NCBI GenBank assembly: GCA_017470095.1
Contig: JAFUFC010000019.1
Coordinates: 1-32,915 of the forward strand
Reading direction: 5' to 3'
DNA: 32,915 bases
From: Clostridia bacterium
GTDB lineage: Bacteria > Bacillota > Clostridia > Christensenellales > Aristaeellaceae
The notes under the pieces were generated by a model that saw nothing but the letters and a program-made list of their open reading frames with translations, made no database searches and was not told where the DNA came from. The position numbers were made by a program, and so were the translations under genes. Each line of letters begins with the position of its first letter. Position 1 is the first letter of the stretch. This document shows, one piece after another, positions 1-19,574 of this stretch.

Positions 1-413
1 TCGCCCTTGGCGTCGTCCTTGAAGGTCATTTCCACATAAGCGGGCAGGTCGGCGCCGGATTCAATGTAATCCCCATAGCGGCGAATGAAGCTGCCCACAG
101 CCTTGTGGCGGCAGATCACTTCCAGCCCATGGCCGAACACCTTGGCCGGCAGCACTTCCATGGTGGTGTTGTTCAGATCGGCGCTGACATAATGAGTCTT
201 GATGCCGGCAGCGTTCACCTTTTCAAAGAAATAGATGCTCATGCGCAGGTTCACATCGCCCACGCCGTCAATGGTCAGCCCTACAGAATTTTCGCCAGGA
301 TCGAACACGCCGTCCTTGCCGGTGCAGTCATCCTTGAATTTGAGGAGATAGTTGCCGTTTTCCAGGGCATAAACGTTCTTGGTTTTTCCGGTGTAGACGA
401 GCTTCTGTTCCAT
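1..413 (-). CDS. purC: SAICAR synthase, partial (C-terminus beyond left edge)
   Basis: This is the N-terminal 137 codons of phosphoribosylaminoimidazole-succinocarboxamide synthase, the purine-pathway ligase that joins CAIR and aspartate using ATP in the cytoplasm. The translation opens with [15 protein letters not shown], the PurC substrate-binding start. It continues with [10 protein letters not shown], then [15 protein letters not shown] and [16 protein letters not shown], which are typical PurC blocks. The ATG at 413 has GGAGT about 8 nt upstream. It lies 43 nt downstream of purE on the same strand, so the two genes should share the ZTP-controlled transcript. The rest of the gene is outside the window, so completeness cannot be judged. 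Confidence 0.93.
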
Positions 414-456
414 GGTGATGCACTCCTTTTTATCGTTGATGTTTATTGAAATGGGT

Positions 457-945
457 TTACAGCTTTTCCATGATGGCCGCATCCTTCACAAGCACGGCCT
501 GGGCATCTTTCGCGCGCTTTTCATCCAGCTTCCTGGCCAAATCAGCATCCTCCAGCGCCAGGATCTGGGCGGAAAGCAAAGCGGCATTGACCCCTCCATT
601 GATGGCAACGGTGGCAACCGGGATGCCGCTGGGCATCTGGACCGTTGACAGGAGCGCGTCAATGCCGTCAAGCACGGAAGATTGACAGGGAATGCCGATG
701 ACCGGTAGGATGGTGTTGGCCGCGATGGCCCCGGCCAGATGGGCCGCCATGCCCGCCGCGGCGATGATCACCCCGAAGCCGTTTTCGGCGGCGTGCAGGG
801 CAAACTGCCGGGCCTCCTCCGGGGTGCGATGGGCCGAATAGACGTGCACCTCAAAGGGAATATCAAAGCTCTTGAGGGTATCTGTGGCTTTGCGGACGAT
901 GGGCAGATCGCTGTCGCTGCCCATGACGATCCCGACTTTTCTCAT
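457..945 (-). CDS. purE: N5-carboxyaminoimidazole ribonucleotide mutase
   Basis: PurE (162 aa) rearranges N5-CAIR to CAIR in de novo purine synthesis. The protein starts [15 protein letters not shown], with the conserved GSDSD phosphate-binding loop, followed by SAHRTPE and the [11 protein letters not shown] and GIPCQSS blocks of class I PurE. Length matches the family (about 160 aa). I chose ATG 945 rather than the longer frame reaching 981, because AAAGGAGG sits 6 nt upstream of it and the longer version would run into the leader terminator. It is the first gene after a ZTP riboswitch and is followed by purC. No purK is visible here. Confidence 0.95.
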
Positions 946-964
946 TCGTTTTCCTCCTTTACGA

Positions 965-1017
965 AAAGCAAAAGGGCGCACCCGGACTTTGATTCGATCA
1001 GCAGTTCAAGTGCGCCC
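965..1017 (-). terminator. Riboswitch-controlled intrinsic terminator in purE leader
   Basis: On the minus strand GGGCGCA (1017-1011) pairs with TGCGCCC (980-974), followed by TTTTGCTTTT. The 5' arm shares its GGGC with the conserved CUGGGC at the 3' end of the ZTP aptamer. Ligand-stabilised aptamer and terminator are therefore mutually exclusive, which is the layout of a genetic ON switch. Confidence 0.85.
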
Positions 1018-1083
1018 AGACGGTCGGCTGAAAATACACTCCTTGTTCCTCCGTGGTGCTCCACGATTGTTCCGTCAGTCGCA
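1013..1083 (-). ncRNA. ZTP/ZMP (pfl) riboswitch aptamer upstream of purE
   Basis: The minus-strand RNA contains GACUGACGGAAC (1080-1069), a short GUGG...CCAC hairpin (1064-1053), a linker, and then CCGACCGUCUGGGC (1027-1014). These are the two conserved halves of the pfl motif, which form the ZMP/ZTP-binding pseudoknotted fold. The ligand (AICAR mono- or triphosphate) accumulates when 10-formyl-THF is short. Placement directly ahead of purE-purC, with a terminator overlapping the last aptamer helix, fits activation of purine synthesis. The call is by motif recognition from memory; a covariance-model search was not possible. Confidence 0.88.
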
Positions 1084-1111
1084 GGGAATGGCGCTTACAA
1101 AACGCATTTTT

Positions 1112-1141
1112 AGTGTAGCATTCCTTGGCGAAGATTGTCAA
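1112..1141 (-). promoter_or_regulatory. Sigma-A promoter of purE-purC
   Basis: On the minus strand, TTGACA (1141-1136), an 18-nt spacer and TACACT (1117-1112) form a good housekeeping promoter. Transcription would begin near 1105, just before the ZTP riboswitch. Confidence 0.75.
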
Positions 1142-1238
1142 GAGAAAAATATTCGGCAAATAGCAGAATTTCACCCTCATTTTTTAGGGCACATTGACGA
1201 GTTGCTATTTTCGGTTCCAAAAAAGGCGAACGAAACCA

Positions 1239-1267
1239 TTGACTTTTCATTTTTTGTGCGTTATAAT
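1239..1267 (+). promoter_or_regulatory. Sigma-A promoter of the pyr operon
   Basis: TTGACT (1239-1244), 17 nt, TATAAT (1262-1267). Expected start near 1275, giving a leader of about 140 nt that contains the PyrR attenuator. Confidence 0.85.
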
Positions 1268-1284
1268 TCCAACGAATCACGGTT

Positions 1285-1396
1285 CTTTAAGCTAGTTCAG
1301 AGAGACTGGCAAGATGCTGTGCCGAGGAAAGGGGCGTTTACGCGCGCTCCGTCTTGTCTGCGCATTCAGCCTTGCCCGTCCCGGCAAGGTTTTTTT
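1285..1396 (+). promoter_or_regulatory. PyrR-dependent transcription attenuator of the pyr operon
   Basis: Three alternative helices are visible. The PyrR-binding hairpin has stem GCTAGT (1291-1296) with ACTGGC (1305-1310) around TCAGAGAG. The core AGTTCAGAGAGACT (1294-1307) matches the PyrR consensus ARUCCNGNGAGGYU except at two positions, which I read as opposite each other in the stem (C to U and G to A), a compensatory change. GGCAAG (1308-1313) in the 3' arm of this hairpin is complementary to CTTGCC (1371-1376), giving an antiterminator. The terminator is CCTTGCC (1370-1376) with GGCAAGG (1383-1389), followed by seven T. PyrR with UMP should stabilise the first hairpin, free the terminator and stop transcription. 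Confidence 0.85.
1370..1396 (+). terminator. Attenuator terminator upstream of pyrC
   Basis: A 7-bp GC-rich stem (1370-1376 with 1383-1389) and a 6-nt loop, followed by TTTTTTT. It ends 18 nt before the pyrC start and is the regulated terminator of the PyrR attenuator. Confidence 0.88.
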
Positions 1397-1414
1397 GATG
1401 AAAGGAGCGCGCCC

Positions 1415-2608
1415 ATGCGTCAGATGCGGTTCATCGGCTTCCCCAGCCTGGATGCACAGCGCCAAGAAGCGTTATTATCCTTCCTGCCCGCGCTGCCCAA
1501 CGGCTCTTTCACCGTTTTTCCCGGCTTTTGCGATGTGCATGTGCATTTTCGTGAGCCGGGTTTTTCTTATAAGGAAACCATCAAAACAGGCAGCCAGGCA
1601 GCGGCCCATGGGGGCTACACTGCCGTGTGCGCCATGCCCAATTTGAATCCTGTACCCGATACCCTCCAGCATTTACAGCCCCAGCTTGACCTGATTCGGG
1701 ATACCGCCTGCATTGCCGTTTACCCGTACGGGGCCATCACAATGAACGAAAAAGGAGAAGAGCTGGCCACTCTGGAAGAAATGGCCCCCCATGTGATCGC
1801 CTTTTCCGACGATGGAAAAGGCGTGCAGCAGGAGGACATGATGCGCGCGGCCATGCGCGCCGCCAGGCGCCTTGGCAAGGTAATCGCCGCTCACTGCGAG
1901 GATAACGCCCTCCTTCATGGGGGCTATATCCACGACGGCGCCTACGCCAAAGCCCACGGCCACCGGGGCATTTGCTCCCAAAGCGAGTGGGGCCCCATCG
2001 CCCGGGATATAAGACTGGCCAAGGAAACGGGCTGCGCCTATCACGTGTGCCACATTTCCTGCAAAGAGAGCGTTGAAATCATCCGGCAGGCAAAAAAAGA
2101 AGGCGTGAACGTCACCTGCGAAACAGCGCCCCATTACCTGCTGCTGGATGAAAACGATCTGCAAGAAGACGGCCGGTTCAAGATGAACCCGCCCCTTCGC
2201 GCCAAAGAGGACCACGAAGCCCTGCTAAACGGCCTTGCGGACGGCACCATCGATATGATCGCCACCGACCATGCCCCCCATAGCGCCGTGGAAAAATCCA
2301 AGGGGCTGGAAAAGAGCGCCTTTGGCATCGTGGGCATCGAAACGGCTTTTCCCCTGCTTTACACCGGCTTGGTGCAAAAAGGCGTGATTTCGTTGGAAAA
2401 GCTGATTGACCTCATAGCCATCGCGCCCCGGAAACGCTTTGACATTTCGCTAAAAAACGATCTCACCGTGTGGGATTTAAACGCAAAAACCACCGTCAAT
2501 CCGGATACGTTCCTGTCCAAAGGAAAAGCCACTCCCTTCGCGGGCGCACCCATTACCGGCGAATGCGTCTGCACGATCTACGACGGCGCCATCGCTTATC
2601 AGAAATAA
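1415..2608 (+). CDS. pyrC: Dihydroorotase (class I)
   Basis: This 397-aa protein interconverts carbamoyl-aspartate and dihydroorotate, step 3 of UMP synthesis, using a dinuclear zinc centre. Visible signatures are the metal-binding HVHFREPG near residues 42-49 (DVHVHFREPG), the NPVPDT region, AAHCEDN, the CHISCKESVE block, TAPHYLLL and ATDHAPHS near the C-terminal third. The open frame extends upstream, but ATG 1415 is chosen because it has AAAGGAGCG 8 nt before it and follows the attenuator terminator. It is the first gene of the operon; carB begins 15 nt later. Confidence 0.94.
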   Translation: MRQMRFIGFPSLDAQRQEALLSFLPALPNGSFTVFPGFCDVHVHFREPGFSYKETIKTGSQAAAHGGYTAVCAMPNLNPVPDTLQHLQPQLDLIRDTACIAVYPYGAITMNEKGEELATLEEMAPHVIAFSDDGKGVQQEDMMRAAMRAARRLGKVIAAHCEDNALLHGGYIHDGAYAKAHGHRGICSQSEWGPIARDIRLAKETGCAYHVCHISCKESVEIIRQAKKEGVNVTCETAPHYLLLDENDLQEDGRFKMNPPLRAKEDHEALLNGLADGTIDMIATDHAPHSAVEKSKGLEKSAFGIVGIETAFPLLYTGLVQKGVISLEKLIDLIAIAPRKRFDISLKNDLTVWDLNAKTTVNPDTFLSKGKATPFAGAPITGECVCTIYDGAIAYQK

Positions 2609-2623
2609 CAGGAGGATGCAACC

Positions 2624-3262
2624 ATGGCAAAGCGCACGGATGTGAAAAAGGTACTGATCATCGGCTCCGGCCCCATCGTCATCGGCCATGCGGCGGAATT
2701 CGACTACGCGGGCACTCAGGCCTGTCTTGCCCTGAAAGAAGAAGGCTATGAGGTCATTCTGTGCAATTCCAATCCCGCCACCATCATGACCGACACTGCC
2801 ATCGCCGACAAGGTATACATGGAGCCGCTGACGCTGGAATACATCGCCAAGATCCTCCGGTACGAGCGGCCGGACGCCATCGTTCCCGGCATCGGCGGCC
2901 AAACAGGGCTGAACTTGGCCATGCAGCTGGAGAAAAAGGGCATCCTGAAGGAATGCGGCGTTGAACTGCTGGGCACTTCCTCCTCCTCCATCGAGCGGGC
3001 CGAGGACCGGGAGCTGTTCAAAGAAATGTGCATGAAAATTGGCGAGCCGGTGATCCCCTCCGAAATCACCTATAATATTGAAGAAGCCAAAGCCGCGGCC
3101 CTGCGCATCGGCTATCCCGTGGTGCTGCGCCCCGCTTTCACCCTGGGCGGCACCGGCGGCGGCTTTGCCAACGACGAAAATGAGTTGACCGAGATCGCCG
3201 CCAACGGCTTTGCCCTGTCCCCGGTGCACCAGGTGCTGGTGGAAAAAAGCGTGAAGGGCTAA
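2624..3262 (+). CDS. carB 5' open frame (N-terminal 212 aa)
   Basis: This is the open part of carB before the internal TAA: the pre-ATP-grasp domain and the start of the first ATP-grasp domain, ending at SVKG. It stops inside a structural domain rather than at a domain border, so a naturally split and functional subunit is unlikely. It is translated from the normal carB start. Confidence 0.5.
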
Positions 3263-3283
3263 AAGGAAATAGAATTTGAGGTC

Positions 3284-5797
3284 ATGCGGGATTCCAATGA
3301 CCACGCCATCACCATCTGCGGCATGGAAAACATCGACCCCGTGGGCGTGCATACCGGCGACAGCATCGTGGTGGCTCCCATTCTTTCCCTGAACGATTAC
3401 GACCTGAAGATGCTGAATGACAGTGCCATCAAGATCATCCGGGAGCTCAAAATCGAAGGCGGCTGCAACGTGCAGTTTGCCCTGAACCCCACCTCCTCCG
3501 AATACTTCCTGATCGAAGTCAACCCTCGGGTGTCCCGTTCCTCCGCCTTGGCGTCAAAGGCCAGCGGCTATCCCATCGCCCGGGTGACGGCCAAGATCGC
3601 CCTGGGCATGGCCCTGGAAGATATCGCCGTGGCTGGGGGCACCGCGGCCATCGAGCCCAGCCTGGACTATATTGTGGCCAAATTCCCCCGCTTCCCCTTT
3701 GATAAATTCGCCTCCGCTCCCAACACCCTGGGCACCCAGATGAAGGCCACCGGCGAAGTGATGGGAATCGGCAGCAGCCTGGAAGAGTGCCTGCTCAAAT
3801 CCGTTCGTTCTCTGGAAACGGGCGTGTGCCACTTCCGCCTGGCAAAGTTTGACGACTGGACGACGGAAACGCTGCTAAATTATATTGCCGAATTCCGGGA
3901 TGACAATGTATTCGCCATCTTTGAATTGCTCCGCCGGGGCGTATCCGTGGAAACGCTCCATGAAAAAACCATGATCACAGAGCTGTTCCTGGAAGCCTTC
4001 CAGCGCATCGTGGAGATGGAGAATATCCTGAAGGAAAAGATTAATTCCGTCCCCGCCCTGCGGGCCGCCAAAATGATGGGTTTTTCCGATCAGTATATCG
4101 CCAGGCTGTGGAACGAAAAGGAAACGGAAATCTACTGCATCCGCAAGAAAAACGGCATCACCCCCGTTTTCCGCATGGTGGACACCCTGCACACCGGCAA
4201 ATACATCGCTTACCTGTACTCCTCCTACCATAACAAAAACGATTCCCGCCTGACGGACAAAAAGAAGATCGTGGTGCTGGGAGCCGGGCCCATCCGCATC
4301 GGCCAGGGCGTCGAATTCGACTATTCCACCGTCCACGCGGTGCAGACCATCAAGCGGGCCGGGTACGAAGCCATCATCATTAACAACAACCCGGAAACCG
4401 TATCGACTGATTATACCACGGCGGACAAGCTGTATTTTGAACCCCTGACCCCGGAAGACGTGATGGCCATCATCGATTTTGAACAGCCCCAGGGCGTCAT
4501 TGCCTCCTTGGGCGGCCAGACCGCCATCAACCTGGCCCAGCCCCTGATGGACCGGGGCGTCAGCATCATCGGCACGGACTGCGCCGCCATTGAGCGAGCA
4601 GAAAACCGGGACAGCTTTGAAAAAATCCTGCTGGAGTTGGGCATTCCCCAGCCCAAGGGCCAGGCCGTCACCCGGATCGAGGACGGCGTAAAAGCCGCCG
4701 CGGAGATCGGCTATCCCGTGCTGGTGCGGCCCTCCTTCGTGCTGGGCGGAAGAGCCATGCAGATCGTGGGCAACGAGCAGCAGTTGCGCAAATACCTGAA
4801 AACAGCCGTGGAAATCGACGCGGACAAGCCCGTGCTGGTGGACAAGTACATTCAGGGCAAGGAAGTGGAAGTGGACGCCATCTGCGATGGGCTGGACGTA
4901 TTCGTCCCCGGCATTATGGAACTGGTAGAGCGCACCGGCATCCACTCCGGCGACTCCATCAGCGTCTACCCAACCTTCTCCATTTCCGACAAGGTGAAGG
5001 GCATCATCCTCCAATACGCCAAGAAGCTGGGCTTGGGCATTGGCATCAAGGGATTGTACAACATCCAGTTCATCGTAGATAAGCAAGAAAACGTATACAT
5101 TATCGAGGTGAACCCCCGCTCTTCCCGCACGGTGCCTTTCCTGTCAAAGGCCACCGGCTACAGCCTGGCAGATATCGCCACCGAGGTCATCCTGGGCAAA
5201 ACCCTCAAGGAGCAGGGCATTTTCTGCCTCTATCCCGAAGAAAAGAAACGGTTCTATGTGAAGGTGCCGGTGTTCTCCTTCAACAAGATCAAGGGCTTGG
5301 ATGTGTATCTCTCCCCCGAAATGAAATCCACCGGCGAGGCCATCGGCTACGACGATAAGCTGAACCGCGCCCTATACAAGGCCCTGCAGGCCGCCGGTAC
5401 GCGGCTGCAAAACTACGGCACTGTGTTTGCCACCATCGCCGACCAAGACAAGGAAGAGGCCCTGCCGCTGATCCGCCGGTTCTACAATCTGGGCTTTAAC
5501 ATCCAAGCCACTGAGGGCACCGCCAAATTCCTCAAGCAAAACGGTATCCGCACCCACATCCTGAAAAAAATCAGCGATGGCAGCGATGAAATCCCCAATG
5601 CCATTCGCCAGGGCCACATCGCCTACGTGATCAACACCCGCCGCATCGATTCCGCCGATCAGGCCAGTGACGGCATCGCCATCCGCCGCCTGGCAACGGA
5701 CAGCAACGTGACCATCTTCACCTCCCTGGACACCGTGCGGGTGCTGCTGGACGTGCTGGAAGAAACCACCTTGACCATCTCCACCATCGACGCGTAA
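3284..5797 (+). CDS. carB 3' open frame (837 aa from first downstream ATG)
   Basis: The remainder of carB in the same frame. The first ATG after the stop (3284) has only a poor, too-close GAGG (2 nt away), with AAAGGA about 16 nt upstream. Restart here would omit KEIEFEV, including the glutamate I align with E. coli CarB Glu215 (ATP ribose contact in the carboxyphosphate site). The second synthetase half and the regulatory domain are intact. Confidence 0.5.
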   Translation: MRDSNDHAITICGMENIDPVGVHTGDSIVVAPILSLNDYDLKMLNDSAIKIIRELKIEGGCNVQFALNPTSSEYFLIEVNPRVSRSSALASKASGYPIARVTAKIALGMALEDIAVAGGTAAIEPSLDYIVAKFPRFPFDKFASAPNTLGTQMKATGEVMGIGSSLEECLLKSVRSLETGVCHFRLAKFDDWTTETLLNYIAEFRDDNVFAIFELLRRGVSVETLHEKTMITELFLEAFQRIVEMENILKEKINSVPALRAAKMMGFSDQYIARLWNEKETEIYCIRKKNGITPVFRMVDTLHTGKYIAYLYSSYHNKNDSRLTDKKKIVVLGAGPIRIGQGVEFDYSTVHAVQTIKRAGYEAIIINNNPETVSTDYTTADKLYFEPLTPEDVMAIIDFEQPQGVIASLGGQTAINLAQPLMDRGVSIIGTDCAAIERAENRDSFEKILLELGIPQPKGQAVTRIEDGVKAAAEIGYPVLVRPSFVLGGRAMQIVGNEQQLRKYLKTAVEIDADKPVLVDKYIQGKEVEVDAICDGLDVFVPGIMELVERTGIHSGDSISVYPTFSISDKVKGIILQYAKKLGLGIGIKGLYNIQFIVDKQENVYIIEVNPRSSRTVPFLSKATGYSLADIATEVILGKTLKEQGIFCLYPEEKKRFYVKVPVFSFNKIKGLDVYLSPEMKSTGEAIGYDDKLNRALYKALQAAGTRLQNYGTVFATIADQDKEEALPLIRRFYNLGFNIQATEGTAKFLKQNGIRTHILKKISDGSDEIPNAIRQGHIAYVINTRRIDSADQASDGIAIRRLATDSNVTIFTSLDTVRVLLDVLEETTLTISTIDA

Positions 5798-5807
5798 AGA
5801 GGCATAA

Positions 5808-6542
5808 ATGAAACAAGGAATTTTCACGGTCACGGGCAACCGCCCGCTGACTGCCAACGTGTATGAAATGCAGTTGACGGGCGATGCATCCGCCGTCACC
5901 CGGCCCGGTCAATTCATCAATATTCAGCTGCCGGGGGCTTACCTGCGCCGTCCCATCTCCGTGTGCGACGCAAGCCAAGGCAACGTCACCATCGTGTACA
6001 AGGTGGTGGGCCGGGGCACCGACGCCCTGAGCCGCATGAAAACCGGGGAGAAACTGGATATTCTTACCGGCCTTGGCAACGGGTACGACGCATCTGAAAG
6101 CGGCGATCACCCCCTGCTGCTGGGCGGAGGCGTGGGCGTGCCGCCCCTGTACCTGCTGGCCAAACGGCTGATGGCTCAGGGCAAGGACGTGACCGTGATC
6201 CTGGGCTTTAACACAAAAGACGAAATTTTCTACGAGCAGGAATTCAAGGCCCTGGGCGCGAACGTCACAATCGCCACCGCGGACGGAAGCGCCGGGGTGA
6301 AAGGCTTTGTGACCGACGCTCTGCCGGAAAGGTATTCCTACGTCTACACCTGTGGCCCGCTGCCCATGCTGAAGGCGGTATACCGGAAGATCACCACCGG
6401 CGGGCAGTTCAGCCTGGAGGAGCGGATGGGCTGCGGCTTTGGTGCCTGCATGGGATGCAGCTGCAAAACCACCGCCGGGTACAAGCGCATCTGCAAGGAC
6501 GGCCCGGTGCTGCGGAAGGAGGAAATCCTGTGGGACGATTGA
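5808..6542 (+). CDS. pyrK: Dihydroorotate dehydrogenase B, electron-transfer subunit
   Basis: PyrK (244 aa) carries FAD and a [2Fe-2S] cluster and passes electrons from PyrD to NAD+. Visible in order are the FAD-binding YLRRPISV near residues 44-51, the nucleotide-binding GGGVGVPPLYLLAKRL, the CGPLPMLKAV block, and a C-terminal cluster motif C-x4-C-x2-C-x11-C within MGCGFGACMGCSCK...RIC. Length is normal. It begins 10 nt after carB with a short AGAGG site, and its end overlaps pyrD by 13 nt, as expected for two subunits of one enzyme. Confidence 0.94.
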   Translation: MKQGIFTVTGNRPLTANVYEMQLTGDASAVTRPGQFINIQLPGAYLRRPISVCDASQGNVTIVYKVVGRGTDALSRMKTGEKLDILTGLGNGYDASESGDHPLLLGGGVGVPPLYLLAKRLMAQGKDVTVILGFNTKDEIFYEQEFKALGANVTIATADGSAGVKGFVTDALPERYSYVYTCGPLPMLKAVYRKITTGGQFSLEERMGCGFGACMGCSCKTTAGYKRICKDGPVLRKEEILWDD

Positions 6543-7441
6543 GCGTGAACCTGTGCGGCATTCCGCTGGATAATCCCGTCATCCCGGCCAGCGGCACCTT
6601 CGGCTACGGCTATGAATTCGCCGAACTGTACGATATCAACTGCCTGGGCACCTTCTCCTTTAAAGGCACTACCAGGGACCCCCGCTTTGGCAATCCCACG
6701 CCTCGCATCGCCGAGTGCACAGCCGGGATGATCAACGCCGTGGGGCTGCAAAATCCCGGGGTTGAGAAGGTGATCAGAGAAGAACTGCCGAAATTGAAAA
6801 CATGCTTCCACAAGCCTGTGATGGCCAACGTGAGCGGCTTTTCCGTGGCCGATTATGCCTACACCTGTGAAAAGCTGGACCAGGAAGCGCAAGTTGGCTG
6901 GATTGAGGTGAACGTTAGCTGCCCCAACGTGCACGGCGGCGGCATGAGCTTCGGCACCGATCCCGCCGCAGCGGCGGAGGTGACGAAGGCGGTCAAGGCC
7001 GTCACGAAAAAACCCGTGATCGTCAAGCTGTCCCCCAACGTGACGGATATCGTGTCCATCGCGAAAGCCTGCCAGGACGCGGGAGCCGACGGTATCAGTT
7101 TAATCAACACGCTCTTGGGCATGCGCGTTGATCTGAAAACCAGGCGCCCCATCATCGCCAACACCATGGGCGGTTTTTCCGGCCCGGCCATCTTCCCGGT
7201 AGCGCTCAGGATGGTATACCAGGTGTCAAAAGCTCTGGCGATCCCGGTGGTGGGCATGGGCGGCGTGCGCACCGCCCAGGACGTGATCGAAATGATGCTC
7301 TGCGGTGCCACCGCCGTGGAAATCGGCGCGGAAAACCTGGTGAATCCCTATGCCTGCCGGGACATCATTGCCGCCCTGCCGGAAGCGATGGATCAATACG
7401 GCATTGCTACCCTGAACGAAATCATTGGAGGTGCTCACTGA
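6530..7441 (+). CDS. pyrD: Dihydroorotate dehydrogenase B, catalytic subunit
   Basis: This class 1B FMN enzyme (303 aa) oxidises dihydroorotate to orotate and forms a heterotetramer with PyrK. The N-terminus [20 protein letters not shown], the ENLVNPYA region and the catalytic-cysteine motif NVSCPN are family features; [10 protein letters not shown] is the phosphate-binding part. GTG 6530 is chosen as start because AAGGAGG lies 7 nt upstream and it gives the canonical N-terminus; the frame stays open further upstream only inside pyrK. Its TGA overlaps the pyrF ATG. Confidence 0.94.
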
Positions 7442-8139
7442 TGGGAAAGGACGTCATCATCGCCTGCGATTTTGCCAGCGCGGAAAAGACCTACGCGTTT
7501 CTGGATCAATTCACCACTCGCAAACCCTTTGTGAAAATTGGTATGGAACTGTTCTACGCCGAAGGGCCTCAAATTGTGCGGGAAATCAAGGCCCGGGGGC
7601 ACAAAATCTTTCTGGATTTAAAACTGCATGACATTCCCAACACCTTGAAAAAAGCCATGGCAGTGCTGTCGAAGCTGGATGTGGATATTTGCAATCTTCA
7701 CGCGGCGGGCACCAGGCGCATGATGGAAGCGGCCATAGAAGGCCTGACCCGGCCGGACGGCACCCGGCCCCTGCTCATCGCCGTCACCCAGCTCACCTCC
7801 ACCGATCAGGAGAGCATGGAAAAGGACCTGCTCATTCACGCGCCCATCGATCAGGTGGTGATGCACTATGCCCAGTGCGCCCGGGACGCGGGGCTGGACG
7901 GGGTTGTCTGCTCTCCCTTGGAAGCGGGCAAAGTGCATGCCGCGTGCGGCGAAACGTTCCTTACCGTCACCCCTGGCGTGCGCTTTGCCGACGGGGATGT
8001 GGGCGACCAAAAGCGAGTCATGACCCCCACCCAGGCCCGGGAAATCGGCTCGGACTATATCGTGGTGGGTCGGCCCATCACCGCCGCTCCGGACCCCGTA
8101 GCCGCCTATGAGCGGTGCGTAAAGGAGTTTGTTGGATGA
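7441..8139 (+). CDS. pyrF: Orotidine 5'-phosphate decarboxylase
   Basis: PyrF (232 aa) decarboxylates OMP to UMP, the last step of the pathway. It starts [16 protein letters not shown], with the catalytic [10 protein letters not shown] motif near residues 59-68 and the C-terminal phosphate loop [10 protein letters not shown]. It starts on the TGATG overlap with pyrD, an arrangement expected to give translational coupling. Its last codons overlap the start of the Nudix gene. Confidence 0.95.
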
Positions 8140-8687
8140 AAAAATTAAAAGAGATCCGGCCCGTCGGCGGCGGTTTTCTGAAAAAATATGAATTGCGCTA
8201 TGACGCGGACGGCCAGCCGATTTGCTGGGAGATCATTTCCCTCAACGACCTGAAAACGGAAAAGGATCTGGCCTCGCGCCTGACAGCCGTCGAAATCATT
8301 GCCCGGTTTGAGGACGGGGATTACCTGCTCTGCCGGGAGTTCCGCTTTGCCGTCAACGATTACGTATGGGAATTTCCCACCGGCATGATCGATGGAAACG
8401 AAACCCCGCAGGAAGCCGCCGCCCGGGAATTAAGAGAAGAAACCGGATTGGAATTGGTGAAAGTAGACCGTATTCTGCCTCCGGCCTGCTACAGCGTGGG
8501 CCTGACGGACGAAATCATCGTGCCCATTTTCGTCACCGTCCGAGGCGATATGCGGCCTTGCGATGAAGCCTATGAGGAAATCACCTCTTATAAGCTGTCC
8601 CTTGATCAAATCCGCGGCCTGTTGAAAGCAGATCATTTACGCATGACCGAAACCTGCTTACTCACGTTGGCCATGCTTTCTCAGTAA
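8136..8687 (+). CDS. Nudix hydrolase (ADP-ribose pyrophosphatase-like)
   Basis: This 183-aa protein has a perfect Nudix box at residues 83-105: G-x5-E-x7-REL-x-EE-x-GL. The N-terminal strand-rich segment and the [18 protein letters not shown] context resemble the ADP-ribose/ADP-sugar pyrophosphatase branch. ATG 8136 overlaps the pyrF TGA and has AAAGGAG about 8 nt upstream. The substrate cannot be read from sequence. Its position between pyrF and pyrE suggests a job linked to nucleotide or PRPP metabolism, or clean-up of an aberrant nucleotide, but that is inference only. Confidence 0.9.
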
Positions 8688-8716: not shown

Positions 8717-9352
8717 ATGAACACCGCTCGCACCATCGCCCACGATCTTCTGTCCATCCACGCTGTGTTTTTCCGGCCCGACGAGCCCTTCACCTGGGCC
8801 AGCGGCATCAAAAGCCCGGTGTACTGTGATAACCGGCTCACCCTGACTGCCCCCCAGGTGCGCCTGGACGTGGAAAACGGCCTGGCCCAGCTCATCCGGG
8901 AACATTATGCCGACGCCGAAGTGCTCATGGGCACCTCCACCGCCGGGATCGCCCACGCCGCTATTACCGCCCACATCCTGAACATGCCCATGGGCTATGT
9001 GCGGAGCGGCGCCAAGGACCACGGCCGGCAGAACCAGATCGAAGGTAAGCTGGAAAAGGGCCAAAAAGTGGTGGTGGTGGAAGACCTGATTTCCACCGGC
9101 GGCAGCGTGATCGAGGTGGTCAATGTGCTCCGGGACGCCGGGGCCCAGGTCCTGGGCATCGTATCGATCTTCACCTATGGTATGCAAAAGGGCATCGACA
9201 AACTGGCCGCTGCCAACGTGCAAAATATTTCCCTGACCAATTTTGACGTGATCGCCCAGGTAGCCGCCGAGGAGGGCTATATCCAGCCTGACGATATCCG
9301 CCGCCTGATCGCCTTCCGCAACAATCCTTCCGACGAAAGCTGGATCAAATAA
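8717..9352 (+). CDS. pyrE: Orotate phosphoribosyltransferase
   Basis: PyrE (211 aa) transfers the phosphoribosyl group of PRPP to orotate, giving OMP. The PRPP-binding motif [13 protein letters not shown] is at about residues 116-128. The N-terminal [16 protein letters not shown] and the flexible-loop segment [15 protein letters not shown] are typical. AAAGGAGG lies 8 nt upstream of the ATG. One nucleotide separates its stop from pyrB. Confidence 0.95.
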
Positions 9353-9353
9353 C

Positions 9354-10427
9354 ATGAGAAGCGTGATTGACATTCTGGATCTGTCCACCCAGGAAATTGA
9401 CGAGCTGATCGCCACGGCCATCGACATCATCGAAAACCCCGACGCTTACAGCCGCAAATGCGAGGGCAAAAAACTGGCGACGCTGTTTTTCGAGCCTTCC
9501 ACCCGCACGCGGCTCAGCTTTGAAGCCGCCATGTACGAGCTTGGCGGCCATGTGCTGTCCGTCACCGGAGCAGGCGGTTCATCGGTGTCCAAGGGCGAAA
9601 GCATTGCCGATACGGCCCGGACGGTGAATTGCTACGCCGACATCATCGCCCTGCGCCATCCCCAGGAGGGCGCGGCCCTGGTGGCGGCCCAAAGCGTCCC
9701 CATCCCGGTGATCAACGCGGGCGACGGCGGCCATTGCCATCCCACCCAGACCTTGGCCGATCTTTTGACCATTCACCGAGAGAAAGGCAGCTTCGACCAC
9801 CTGACCGTGGGCGTATGCGGCGATTTAAAATTCGGCCGCACAGTGCATTCCCTGATCGGTGCCCTAAGCCGGTATCAGGATGTAAAATTCGTAATGATTT
9901 CCCCGGAGGAATTGAAGGTGCCAGGCTACGTGACCGCCGCCTTAAAGGACCGCAATATTCCCTACACCGAAACTACCTCTTTGGAGGAAGCGCTGCCCTC
10001 ATTGGACATCCTGTACATGACCCGCATCCAGCGGGAGCGGTTTGACGACCCTGCCCTGTATGAAGCGCTGAAGGACAGTTACATCCTGACTCCGAATAAA
10101 ATGAAGCTGGCCAAACAGGATATGTGCGTCATGCACCCTCTGCCCCGGGTGAATGAAATCAGTGTGGCTGTCGACAGCGACCCCCGGGCCTGCTATTTTA
10201 AGCAGGTGCGCAATGGCAAGTACATGCGCATGGCCTTGATTTTAAAATTGCTGCGGGAGCCCTTCGCAGCCAAGCCCCAGCCGGAATTGTTCCATCACCT
10301 GCACTGCCGCAACCCCCGGTGCATCACCCGCACGGAGCAGGAATTGCGCCCCTCCTTTTTCCTGACCGGGGGCAAAACGGCGCCGGTGTACCGCTGCATC
10401 TACTGCGAGCATCGGGCCCGAGAGTAA
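9354..10427 (+). CDS. pyrB: Aspartate carbamoyltransferase with PyrI-like zinc domain at C-terminus
   Basis: PyrB condenses carbamoyl phosphate with aspartate. Residues 1 to about 305 are a normal catalytic chain: [12 protein letters not shown] (carbamoyl phosphate site), [19 protein letters not shown] and [10 protein letters not shown]. The protein continues to 357 aa with a short linker and a segment holding Cys318-x4-Cys323 and Cys348-x2-Cys351. This is the spacing and context of the zinc domain of the regulatory chain PyrI, but the PyrI allosteric nucleotide-binding domain is absent. It starts 1 nt after pyrE with no clear SD, so coupled translation is likely. No terminator is seen before the next promoter. 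Confidence 0.93.
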
Positions 10428-11843: not shown

Positions 11844-13019
11844 GTGCAGACAACCATACAGAAAGCACGAAAAATTCTGGAGCCGGAAAATAAAACGCCC
11901 ATCATGATTTTCCGGGCCCTGCTCATTCTGGCGGGCTTAATGATCGCCGGCGGCGGCATCTGGTACCTGGCCATCACCGGCATCATTGGCAACAAAAAAT
12001 GGGATTTTCAGCTGTACGGCTTGAAACCCGCCCTGCTGGCCGCAGCCGGGGGCGCGCTGCTGCTGGGCGATCTGATCTGCTTTTTTACGCTGCCCAGCCT
12101 GAAATTCTGGTCCACTCCCATTAAGCGTGATTTGTTCAAGGACCGATACCGGTATCTGCTCATCCTGCCGGGGCTGATTGTGGTATTCGTGTTCAGCTAT
12201 ATGCCCATGTACGGAATCGTGCTGGCTTTCAAAAACTATAAGATCAAAAGCGGCATCATCTTTTCCCAGTGGGTAGACATGTTCCACTTTGAACGGTTTT
12301 TCAAAACTCCCGTAGCCGGCGACGTGATCGGCAACACCCTCTTCATCGGCGTCACCCAATTGTTGATCACCTTCCCCGTGCCCATCATTCTGGCACTGCT
12401 GATGAACGAATTGCGCTCCGTCACCTACCGCCGTACGGTGCAGACGGTGGTGTACCTGCCCCACTTTATCAGCTGGGTCATCATGTACTCCCTCATGTAC
12501 TCCCTCTTTTCCATCACCAGCGGCCTGGTGAACAAAATGCTGATTTCCATGGGGTACAACACCGTCAATATCCTGTCCGACCCCAGCAAATTCTACGGCA
12601 TGCTGTATGTAAGCAGCATCTGGAAGGAGGCCGGCTGGGGCACCATCATCTACATGGCGGCCATCGCCGGCGTGGACCAAGAAATGTACGAAGCGGCCTA
12701 TCTGGATGGGGCCAACTGCTTCCAGCAGTGCCTGCATATCACCCTTCCCTCCATCGCCTTCTCCATCACCACCATGCTGATCCTGAACGTGGGCTCCATC
12801 ATGGGCGCTAATTTTGACCAGATCATGAACCTGCGCAACGCCGCCACTTCCTCCACCGTAGCCCAGGTCATCGACACCTATGTGTACGATATGGGCGTTG
12901 GCAAAGGCCAATACGATCTGTCCACAGCCATTGGCCTGTTCCAGCAGGTGGTCAACTGTGTGCTATTGTTTGTCTCCAACTTCGTGGTCAAAAAGATGTC
13001 CGGCGAAGGCTTCTTTTGA
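11844..13019 (+). CDS. ABC transporter permease, CUT1 / LplB-like
   Basis: First membrane subunit (391 aa) of a carbohydrate ABC importer. The core six-helix permease begins around residue 100 (RYRYLLILPGLIVVFVFSYMP). It carries the ATPase-contact EAA loop EAAYLDGANCFQQCLHITLPS near residues 285-305, as in the LplB/YtcP group that imports oligosaccharides. Unusually, two hydrophobic segments precede the core (about residues 22-45 and 62-82). The start is GTG 11844 with AAGGAG 9 nt upstream. It pairs with the next permease; no ATPase is encoded in the operon. Confidence 0.9.
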   Translation: MQTTIQKARKILEPENKTPIMIFRALLILAGLMIAGGGIWYLAITGIIGNKKWDFQLYGLKPALLAAAGGALLLGDLICFFTLPSLKFWSTPIKRDLFKDRYRYLLILPGLIVVFVFSYMPMYGIVLAFKNYKIKSGIIFSQWVDMFHFERFFKTPVAGDVIGNTLFIGVTQLLITFPVPIILALLMNELRSVTYRRTVQTVVYLPHFISWVIMYSLMYSLFSITSGLVNKMLISMGYNTVNILSDPSKFYGMLYVSSIWKEAGWGTIIYMAAIAGVDQEMYEAAYLDGANCFQQCLHITLPSIAFSITTMLILNVGSIMGANFDQIMNLRNAATSSTVAQVIDTYVYDMGVGKGQYDLSTAIGLFQQVVNCVLLFVSNFVVKKMSGEGFF

Positions 13020-15702: not shown

Positions 15703-17526
15703 ATGGCGAAATCATCCATTGAACTGGTTCCGGAAAAAGGCATTCTGGCCCATGGGAAGACTTGGGCATTCGATGCGTCTTTCCGCCCGTCCATCGTCTA
15801 TCAGGATGGCAGCGAAGTGTTGTTCGATACCGGCGCTGATATCCGCACATTGCCGCTGGTCAACGGCCTGGGAACGGGCGTCAAAACGATGTACCAGGGC
15901 TTTGCAGGCAAGGGCGATCTGCAATTTGAAACCAACGTGCTGGTGTACCCCGCCGGGGATCGGGTGGATTTCAGTTTCGTGATGCTGCGGGACGGAAAGG
16001 GCGCCATCCAGGAGGTGCGCTGGCCTGCGCCCCTTCAAGCGGATGGTGAAAATGCCTATGCCGTGCTGAACACCATGCAGGGGCAATTGCTGCCCAGCGC
16101 CTGGGCAGAAGCTGCATGTGAAAAGCTTCCCTTCGACGGGCAGATGTGCTCCGAAGCCGCCTATATGCCTTGGTGGGGCGAAATCACGCCCCAGGGCGGG
16201 TACCTGGCCTACGTCCGCTCCCCCTGGGATACCAAATACACCGTTTCTCATCCTGCCGGAGGCCCTACCCGCATTTTTGCCCGGCACCTGCCCTCTTTGG
16301 GCAAGATGGCGTATGAGCGCACGGTGTCCTTCTATTTCGTGCCCGCCGGCAGCGATTACGTTACCTTGTGTCAGCTGTATCGCTCCATCGCCGACGAGGA
16401 AGGAAAAGCAGTCACCTTGCGGGCAAAAGCGGCGGAGAATCCCAACGTGGAAAAGCTGATCGGCGCCTGCGTGATGCACGTGCCCGGGAAAAAGCACGTG
16501 GTGCCTGATTCCCGGTATTATGACCGGGAGCACCCCGAAAACAACGACAGCGTAACGCCCTTTAAGCACTGGTCTGAGCGGGTGCGGATGCTGAAGGAAA
16601 AAGGCGTTGACCAATTGTACCTCCATCAGGACGGCTGGGGACAGCCCGGTTATGATAACCAGCACCCGGATTATCTGCCGCCTTGTAGGGAAATGGGCGG
16701 CTGGGAAGGCATGAAGGAATTGTCCGACACCATGCGGGAATTGGGCTTCATGTTCGGCGTGCACGATCAGTACCGGGATTATTATCTGGACGCGCCCACT
16801 TACAACCCCGACCATGCCGCCCAGTCCGCGGACGGCAGCATCTACGGCCACGCCATATGGGCCGGAGGCAAGCAGAATTACCTGTGTGCCGCCCTGGCCC
16901 CTGCCTACGTAAAGCGGAATTTTGACCAGTTGTTCGACCACGGCATCCATCTGGAAGGCACATATTTGGACGTGTTCACCTGCAACGAAGCGGATGAGTG
17001 CGCCAATCCCCGCCACCGCATGACCCGGCAGCAATGCCTGCAATACCGGGCCCAATGCTTCCATTATCTGACCGCCCACCAAGTGGCTCCCTCTTCCGAA
17101 GAGGTGAACGACTGGGCCATGGCATCTCAGGTGTTCTGCCATTGGGCGCCCTACCTGACCGGCGCGGCCATTCCGGTGCCGCTGTTCAACCTGGTGTACC
17201 ACGATTGCGTGCTCATCCCCTGGATGATGCCCGCCGGAGAATGGGGCATTCCAGAAGGAACCACCGGCTTCCTGCAGTGCCTGCTCAACGGCGGCATGGG
17301 CTACATGAGCGAAACCGCCGAAGGAGAGGAATTGGCGGAAAACATCGCCCAGTGGCAAATTATCCGGGAGTTGCAGCGCCATGTGACCAAGGAAAAGATG
17401 ATTGCCCACGAGTTCTTAAACGAAAGCCGCACCCGCCAGCGCACAAAGTTTTCCGATGGCACCCAAGTGACGGTAGACTTTGAGCAAAACACCTACACCA
17501 TCGATTATTCGGAGGACGAAGCATGA
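15703..17526 (+). CDS. Putative TIM-barrel glycosidase-like protein
   Basis: This 607-aa protein has no signal peptide and is probably cytoplasmic. The N-terminal ~250 residues look beta-sandwich-like. The middle region looks like a TIM-barrel hydrolase: LYLHQDGWGQPGYD, a strand FMFGVHDQYRDYYLD, then GTYLDVFT with Asp423, and SSEEVNDW with Glu466/Glu467, a plausible nucleophile and acid/base pair. The style recalls uncharacterised relatives of GH101/GH129-type barrels, but I cannot assign a family or substrate. ATG 15703 is chosen because GAGAGGGGA lies about 9 nt upstream; the open frame further upstream runs through the terminator. Its TGA overlaps the next ATG. Confidence 0.75.
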   Translation: MAKSSIELVPEKGILAHGKTWAFDASFRPSIVYQDGSEVLFDTGADIRTLPLVNGLGTGVKTMYQGFAGKGDLQFETNVLVYPAGDRVDFSFVMLRDGKGAIQEVRWPAPLQADGENAYAVLNTMQGQLLPSAWAEAACEKLPFDGQMCSEAAYMPWWGEITPQGGYLAYVRSPWDTKYTVSHPAGGPTRIFARHLPSLGKMAYERTVSFYFVPAGSDYVTLCQLYRSIADEEGKAVTLRAKAAENPNVEKLIGACVMHVPGKKHVVPDSRYYDREHPENNDSVTPFKHWSERVRMLKEKGVDQLYLHQDGWGQPGYDNQHPDYLPPCREMGGWEGMKELSDTMRELGFMFGVHDQYRDYYLDAPTYNPDHAAQSADGSIYGHAIWAGGKQNYLCAALAPAYVKRNFDQLFDHGIHLEGTYLDVFTCNEADECANPRHRMTRQQCLQYRAQCFHYLTAHQVAPSSEEVNDWAMASQVFCHWAPYLTGAAIPVPLFNLVYHDCVLIPWMMPAGEWGIPEGTTGFLQCLLNGGMGYMSETAEGEELAENIAQWQIIRELQRHVTKEKMIAHEFLNESRTRQRTKFSDGTQVTVDFEQNTYTIDYSEDEA

Positions 17527-19574
17527 GCACATTGATGATTGCCCCGTATTGGATGCCCGGCGCGTCCCTGGGAAAGGAAAATCCCCTGCCGGACCTAAAA
17601 GGCGTAGGCGATGCCCATGAGCACATTGAAATCGACCATGAAACGGTGACCGATGAAGAAGCCCGCTACATGGGCTGGGGACGAATTCACAGCATCCTGC
17701 CCTACACCATCCAGGACGGCTATGGCCGCGCGCGCCGCCGCCGCTCCTTCCCTGCCGCTATTCTGGAAAACGAGCATTTGAAAGCCGTGTTCATCCTGAA
17801 TTTGGGCGGAAGGTTGTGGTCCCTGTACGATAAAGACAAGGGACGCGAATTGCTCCACCGCAATCCCGTGTTCCAGCCCGCTAACCTGGCCCTGCGCAAC
17901 GCCTGGTTCTCCGGCGGCGTGGAATGGAACTGCGGCATCATTGGCCACACGCCCTTCACGGCGGATGATCTATGCGCGGAAACCCTTTCCCTATCCGACG
18001 GCACGCCGGTGCTGCGCATGTTCCAGTACGAGCGGGTGCGCCATTTACTCTACCGGGTGGAAGCGTTCCTGCCCGACGGCGCAAAGGAATTGTACGTCCG
18101 GGTGCGCATTGATAACGCCCGGCAGGAGGATACCGCCGTCTACTGGTGGAGCAACATGGCTGTGGACGAACGGGAGGACGTGCGGGTGCTGGTGCCCGCG
18201 CAGAAGGCGTTCCGCTACGGCTATGGCGGCAAATTATCGAAGGTGCCGGTGCCCTATATGACCGTGGAAGCCGACAAGCTCCGGGGCGACGCCGCCCGGC
18301 TGGCCCGGAAAAACGGCGGCACCCTGGATTGGGATATTTCCCACACTACGGGCCTGCCCCAGGCCATGGATTTCTTCTTTGACGTCCCGAAAACGGCTCG
18401 GCCTTTCATCGCCGCTTTGAACAAGGACGGCTACGGCATGTGCCAGACCTCCACCGGCGAATTGCGGGGAAGGAAGCTGTTCGTCTGGGGCATGGGCCGG
18501 GGCGGACGGCACTGGCAATCCTTCCTTTCAAAGCCCGGCAGCGCGTATATTGAATTGCAATCCGGCCTGGCTCACACCCAATTGGAGCATCTGCCCATGG
18601 CCGCCGGCGCGTCCATCAGCTGGCTGGAATCCTACGGCCCCATTCAAGCTGACGCTGCCGCCGCCCAGGATGCCGACTGGGACAAGGCCGTGTCCGCTGC
18701 AGCCAAGGCGTTGGATACGCAGCGCCCCGGCGAAGCGCTGGAAAAATACCATGATCAAATCAAGCGGGAATTGGACGGCGCCGCCGGCAGGGTCGTCCAC
18801 CGGGGCATGGGCTTTGCCCGGGCGGAAAAAGCGCTGCTGGGCGATGCGTTCGATCTCTGTGGCCTGCCCCTTGCCGCCATGCGCCGGGGCAAGGCGGAAA
18901 TTCCCTGGCTCTCGCTGGCGCAAAAGGGCATGTTTCCCTGCCCCGCTCCTTTGGAGGAACCCGTCAGCTATCAGATTGGCCCCGAATGGGAATCGGCCCT
19001 GCGAAAGGCCGTCGCGTCCGGCGGTAGCGATCACTGGTATGCCCACTATCAACTGGGTGTGATGGCGGCCCACCAGAACGAATGGACAGAGGCACAAAAG
19101 GAATTTGAACTGTCGCTTTCCCAGGCAGAAAACCCCTGGGCCATGCGGTGCCTGTCCTTGTGCGCATCCCAAGCAGGAAATCAGGAGGCGGCGGCGAATT
19201 GGATGCTGGAAGCCGCTACCATGAAGCCCATTCGTCCATTGACGGTGGAAGCCATGGAGCTGCTGCTAAATGCTCAACGATTCGAGGATATGCTGTCGCT
19301 TTACGCCCACTTGTCCCCTGCCTTGCAAAAGGACGGCCGCCTGATGGCCTATCACGCGGCGGCGCTGCTTCGGCTGGGCCGCTTGAATGAAGCGGAAAAA
19401 GTGCTGCAAGGCCCCATCGTACTCACCGATGTGCGAGAAGGCAATAACCTGCTCACCGATCTTTGGTTCGAGGCGGCAGCCCTGCGGCAATTCGGGAAAG
19501 CGGATGAAGCAGCCCGCGCCTGGGCAGAGGAGCATGTGCCCGTGCCGGAGCATCTGGATTTTCGCATGAGATAA
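17523..19574 (+). CDS. DUF5107-like protein with C-terminal TPR-type repeats
   Basis: This 683-aa protein starts on an ATGA overlap with the glycosidase-like gene. Residues ~40-400 resemble the DUF5107 beta-sandwich, with the telltale LGGRLWSLYDKDKGRELLHRN, NPVFQPANLALRNAW and FSGGVEWN stretches. Proteins of this kind sit in glycan-utilisation loci and resemble galactose-mutarotase-like folds. Residues ~510-670 are helical and repeat-like (YAHYQLGVMAAHQNEWTEAQ, LLRLGRLNEAEKVL), consistent with TPRs. No signal peptide is seen. It is likely a cytoplasmic partner in breakdown of the imported sugar; its activity is unknown. Confidence 0.8.
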   Translation: MSTLMIAPYWMPGASLGKENPLPDLKGVGDAHEHIEIDHETVTDEEARYMGWGRIHSILPYTIQDGYGRARRRRSFPAAILENEHLKAVFILNLGGRLWSLYDKDKGRELLHRNPVFQPANLALRNAWFSGGVEWNCGIIGHTPFTADDLCAETLSLSDGTPVLRMFQYERVRHLLYRVEAFLPDGAKELYVRVRIDNARQEDTAVYWWSNMAVDEREDVRVLVPAQKAFRYGYGGKLSKVPVPYMTVEADKLRGDAARLARKNGGTLDWDISHTTGLPQAMDFFFDVPKTARPFIAALNKDGYGMCQTSTGELRGRKLFVWGMGRGGRHWQSFLSKPGSAYIELQSGLAHTQLEHLPMAAGASISWLESYGPIQADAAAAQDADWDKAVSAAAKALDTQRPGEALEKYHDQIKRELDGAAGRVVHRGMGFARAEKALLGDAFDLCGLPLAAMRRGKAEIPWLSLAQKGMFPCPAPLEEPVSYQIGPEWESALRKAVASGGSDHWYAHYQLGVMAAHQNEWTEAQKEFELSLSQAENPWAMRCLSLCASQAGNQEAAANWMLEAATMKPIRPLTVEAMELLLNAQRFEDMLSLYAHLSPALQKDGRLMAYHAAALLRLGRLNEAEKVLQGPIVLTDVREGNNLLTDLWFEAAALRQFGKADEAARAWAEEHVPVPEHLDFRMR

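Follow-up and report, generated by a model that had tools for sequence, protein, structure and literature searches.

A premature TAA at a tyrosine codon of carB in a Clostridia bacterium, probably a consensus artefact or a very recent mutation

The carB gene of this Clostridia bacterium carries a TAA at codon 213, and its description as a single-base change at a tyrosine codon is close to certain. The TAA probably reflects a consensus artefact or a mutation of very recent date rather than a new mechanism. carB acts early in the synthesis of pyrimidines and arginine. The window, which is the whole stretch of DNA that was analysed (32,915 nucleotides), is the complete contig C97 of an assembly of 3,049,380 bases in 183 contigs, 92.46% complete and 2.67% contaminated.

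Results

The carB frame and its internal TAA

carB starts at 2624 and ends at 5797 on the plus strand. The frame is open on both sides of a TAA at 3260-3262, as the earlier note had described: the codon and both flanking frames agree. The parts of the gene are as follows.

2624..3262, plus strand: carB 5' part, 212 codons and the internal TAA; positions 1-212 of CarB model NF003671
3260..3262, plus strand: internal TAA, codon 213; a Tyr codon in 95 of 106 usable carB rows
3263..5797, plus strand: carB 3' part, 844 codons and the natural stop; CarB model match from position 214
3284..5797, plus strand: frame from the first ATG 3' of the TAA, 837 amino acids; a conceivable restart site, putative

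In a model search, the 5' part matched positions 1-212 of NF003671 and the 3' part matched positions 214-1050. The large-subunit match thus extends in register over both synthetase halves and nearly the whole model, with the TAA as the one interruption of the frame. The 3' part by itself passes the curated cut-offs of both NF003671 and TIGR01369. The alignment of the 3' part with the E. coli chain 1bxr_A opens at residue 214 and has Glu at 215, so the stop corresponds to residue 213, which we take to be Trp in E. coli. Compared with these CarB references, the window differs in the TAA at 213, where near relatives have Tyr, and in the absence of carA from its genome. The genome search for a second carB that the earlier note had proposed was run on the assembly (92.46% complete) and returned this one carB, a single CPSase large subunit.

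Codon 213 in relatives

Codon 213 was read in the carB loci of the genus and, from the genome collection, in the best 80 of 589 places. From 111 loci examined we obtained 110 rows. Two of these were the window itself and two aligned the other CarB half, which left 106 usable rows. Among these rows, some of which are not independent because a named and an unnamed row come from the same contig, 95 have Tyr (52 TAT and 43 TAC), 6 Phe, 1 Cys and 4 Trp. None of the 106 has a stop at this position, and the conserved stop that programmed read-through would show is therefore missing.

The four Trp rows (L027, L028, L030 and L031, all TGG) are 56.6-58.5% identical to the carB 5' part. carA lies on the same contig in all four, and an OTCace_N gene is also there in three. 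These rows are a separate, second type of carB, and the ancestral codon that matters at position 213 is thus a Tyr codon. The earlier note had assumed that the family has Trp here and that two substitutions (TGG to TAA) were needed. Neither assumption holds for the near relatives: since they have TAT or TAC, the TAA is one substitution away. The note had also named an intact GWKE motif in relatives as evidence against its reading. The motif is intact in relatives, but as GYKE and not as GWKE. An intact GYKE fits an error or a recent mutation and gives no support to read-through.

Selection on carB and state of the pyr genes

We counted the codons that are unique to the window relative to five reference relatives (L003, L004, L006, L008 and L009). 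The ratio of silent to replacement changes was 13:1 in the 5' part and 53:3 in the 3' part. On the window's own branch, purifying selection has therefore acted before and after the stop, and carB was constrained over its full length until very recently. The relaxed selection 3' of the stop that marks a pseudogene was not seen in this count, as expected if the event is very recent.

The other genes around carB, all on the plus strand, are listed below.

872..2608, plus strand: pyrC (dihydroorotase); frame as listed, with the true start further in, as in L166
5808..6542, plus strand: pyrK-like dihydroorotate dehydrogenase electron transfer subunit; family match
6455..7441, plus strand: pyrD; family match begins at residue 28-29 of the listed frame
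7441..8139, plus strand: pyrF; family match
8115..8687, plus strand: NUDIX-domain protein; domain match
8717..9352, plus strand: pyrE; family match
9354..10427, plus strand: pyrB; C-terminal stretch 314-355 resembles the regulatory subunit PyrI

The frames of pyrC, pyrK, pyrD, pyrF, the NUDIX gene, pyrE and pyrB are all open. A second OTCace_N gene, on contig C151, is open as well, so no dependent pathway shows decay. This agrees with two statements of the earlier note: that the rest of the operon is not decaying, and that the absence of decay, which the unique codons confirm on either side of the stop, points to an error or a very recent event. A frameshift in pyrC was suspected, since the listed frame is matched by family models only from about residue 214; it was rejected because pyrC of L166 has the same short N-terminus. 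In PyrB, residues 314-355 resemble the C-terminal part of the regulatory subunit of ATCase.

Other in-frame stops

Codon use was scanned in 100 stretches including the window. The scan is heuristic and its 74 rows were sorted by eye, so the counts are rough lower bounds. Most of the rows are gene ends with a start after them. Besides carB, single in-frame stops were found in three recognisable genes in the half of the genome that was scanned.

The first gene encodes an SBP_bac_5 protein, with TAA at 12350-12352 on the minus strand of L180 (contig C82); both of its parts match the family. At this position the three closest orthologs have TAC, while nine rows at a greater distance show Asn four times, Leu and Tyr twice each and Gln once. 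The second is DprA, with TAG at 1414-1416 on the minus strand of L288 (C183). Its 3' part matches 3uqz_A and its 5' part was recognised by eye only. In 19 rows of relatives the position is Ala (15), Ser (2) or His (2). The third is tRNA-dihydrouridine synthase (Dus), with TAG at 12307-12309 on the plus strand of L282 (C103). Its 3' part matches 6ei9_A and 1vhn_A, and its 5' part was likewise recognised by eye only. A common rule that stops replace Tyr codons fitted both TAA cases that were checked. The rule predicted Tyr at the DprA position as well, where most rows have Ala, and it was dropped.

With a stricter setting, 978,992 bases of the genome gave three rows that were convincing by eye: carB, the SBP_bac_5 protein and L177, where a TAG at 9749-9751 lies inside a small unassigned frame. 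The same setting, with the codon model of the window's own genome, gave 17 rows in 346,525 bases of five relatives (G004, G009, G010, G019 and G024), two of them convincing by eye and both TAG. Within the 90 matches to ABC-transporter domains in the assembly, no stop was found. Single stops are thus scattered at a low rate through this genome and its relatives, the one in carB among them.

Inspection by eye gave additional in-frame TAG candidates at 17740-17742 (L158, minus strand) and 709-711 (L287, minus strand) in this genome, and at 7830-7832 (L219) and 17030-17032 (L167, minus strand) in relatives. In the genus, TAG predominates among the internal stops that are convincing or possible, though few long frames end in TAG; biased sorting of the rows may explain this. 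On the minus strand of L213 (C180), the frame at 376-3348, presumably UvrA, stops at a TAA, after which an apparent lyase end of the fumarase/aspartase type, without its N-terminus, continues in the same frame. The arrangement suggests a remnant or a misjoin. The search on viral contigs found nothing.

Terminators, tRNAs and RNA structure

Terminators were counted in 1,515,638 bases, half the genome, in non-overlapping frames of at least 200 codons (n = 1038). In 991 of these frames the stop lies within the stretch: 458 end in TGA, 447 in TAA and 86 in TAG. ARAGORN assigned an anticodon to all 40 tRNA matches. One is tRNA-Tyr with the ordinary GTA anticodon, and none has the UUA anticodon that would read UAA. 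The RNA 3' of the TAA folds like its shuffles (z = -1.12; 29 of 200 shuffles folded as well). Loss of queuosine, leading to misreading by tRNA-Tyr, was considered and rejected: tgt was found and is free of stops. We observed nothing that supports recoding.

carB without carA

The genome lacks CarA (PF00988), the small subunit of a glutamine-dependent CPSase: no match was found in the assembly (92.46% complete). PF00988 was found in 17 of 29 genomes of the genus and in 14 of 14 controls. A single carB without any carA is also the state of G001-G004, G010 and G019 (77-96% complete), which makes seven genomes with the window's own. In a survey of the family, 39 of 60 genomes drawn at a completeness of at least 90% have carA.

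No carA was seen in the DNA flanking 85 carB loci (the window, L032-L111 and L164-L167). Apart from the window, the upstream DNA at these loci is at least 2 kb in 80 of 84 and at least 5 kb in 61, and there is very little in some. As a positive control, carA was seen at 7 of 13 carB loci from genomes that have it. The six misses are L016-L021, where the upstream DNA is too short for more than the end of carA; for L018 the position was worked out from the PF00988 search, and the others were taken as alike. These six loci have Tyr at 213 and come from genomes with carA, and Tyr at 213 is therefore no marker of a carA-less carB.

Among the six class-I glutamine amidotransferase matches of the genome, none stands out as a stand-in for CarA. 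Three of them are GMP synthase-type proteins, the third of which is below its family cut-off. The others are CTP synthase, HisH and a protein like gamma-glutamyl-GABA hydrolase, which is likewise below the cut-off of its family. Carbamate kinase was rejected as the source of carbamoyl phosphate: the genome has no match, and matches in 20 of the 29 genus genomes are all below the family cut-off.

Another genome of the genus, G028 (95% complete), lacks carB, carA and any OTCace_N gene. It is possibly a natural auxotroph for pyrimidines and arginine.

Discussion

The carB stop is probably an ordinary nonsense substitution or a consensus error. It resembles these in being one substitution from a sense codon, with an intact frame 3' of it and no other decay in carB, and no difference from them was observed at carB. 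One base has changed in a Tyr codon, TAC or TAT in relatives, to give TAA at codon 213 in this assembly. The reading we consider somewhat better than an even bet is that the TAA is confined to the consensus, through a base-calling or assembly error or an allele of a minority strain, and that the population has a working carB. We infer that the living population has not fixed the change. The Tyr codon in most relatives, the constraint on both sides and the low rate of scattered stops elsewhere in the assembly fit such an artefact.

A real and very recent nonsense mutation is the main rival, which we would put short of an even chance. Translation would then stop after residue 212, in the first ATP-grasp domain, CarB activity would be lost, and pyrimidines and arginine would come from the surroundings. 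One substitution is enough for it, and the assembly has no second carB. Other in-frame stops are few, and a high error rate is not evident; the stop-free ABC-transporter matches in particular speak against one and so count against an artefact. The DprA stop cannot be reached by a single change from the codons of relatives, and real divergence accounts for this better than one miscalled base would. G028, without carB or any OTCace_N gene, shows that real loss of the pathway is not far-fetched. Against the mutation stands the lack of decay in the rest of carB and in the other pyr genes, so that the mutation, if real, must be very recent. We favour the artefact over the mutation because this is the only carB found and those dependent genes that were examined are open.

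The remaining explanations together account for well under a tenth of our expectation. Partial read-through, with the ordinary tRNA-Tyr or some other near-cognate tRNA decoding the stop, would give some full-length CarB. In its favour, the second TAA, in the SBP_bac_5 gene, also lies where the closest orthologs have TAC, and a report on Vibrio cholerae describes more UAA read-through in cells lacking tgt (PMC11703503). In the present genome, tgt is present and no tRNA has a UUA anticodon. By the codon use of this genome, Tyr codons make up about 27% of the sense codons one step away from TAA, so that two of two TAA stops at Tyr positions are unremarkable. The DprA and Dus stops are TAG, the DprA position is mostly Ala, and the RNA 3' of the carB stop has no special fold. 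We therefore regard read-through as very unlikely. A wider version, in which UAA at former Tyr positions is a tolerated, weakly suppressed codon of the lineage and the ordinary tRNA-Tyr keeps both carB and the SBP_bac_5 gene alive, has at best a slim chance. If true, UAA would be on its way to becoming ambiguous, at an early and unfinished stage.

A restart of translation from the ATG at 3284 is barely credible. It would give a protein of 837 residues with the second synthetase half and perhaps part of the activity; the 212-residue fragment might or might not contribute. The frame exists, and there are precedents (PMC6022934): Aquifex aeolicus has CPS.A and CPS.B as split genes, and the small CPS described in Methanobrevibacter smithii functions as a dimer. 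As in Aquifex, the CarB sequence here occupies more than one frame. The Aquifex pieces are whole synthetase halves, whereas the break in carB lies inside the first ATP-grasp domain and is absent from all usable rows of relatives. Reassignment of TAA to an amino acid, for which only the carB codon itself and the SBP_bac_5 case could be cited, is excluded because TAA ends 447 of the 991 long frames and none of the 40 tRNAs reads UAA; the earlier note had already thought it unlikely.

The case of codon 213 carries a caution. An interrupted gene should be compared with the residue of its close relatives, and an apparent auxotrophy in an assembled genome can hang on one base.

The carB without carA is more interesting than the TAA. 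Missing contigs could account for an absent carA in one genome, but hardly in seven. On the simplest view, CarB may stand alone here and use ammonia. We found nothing on this carB stop or on a bacterial carB without carA in the literature, a weak negative since the searches partly matched unrelated words. The set of carA-less carB genes makes it testable whether these gut bacteria build carbamoyl phosphate from free ammonia.
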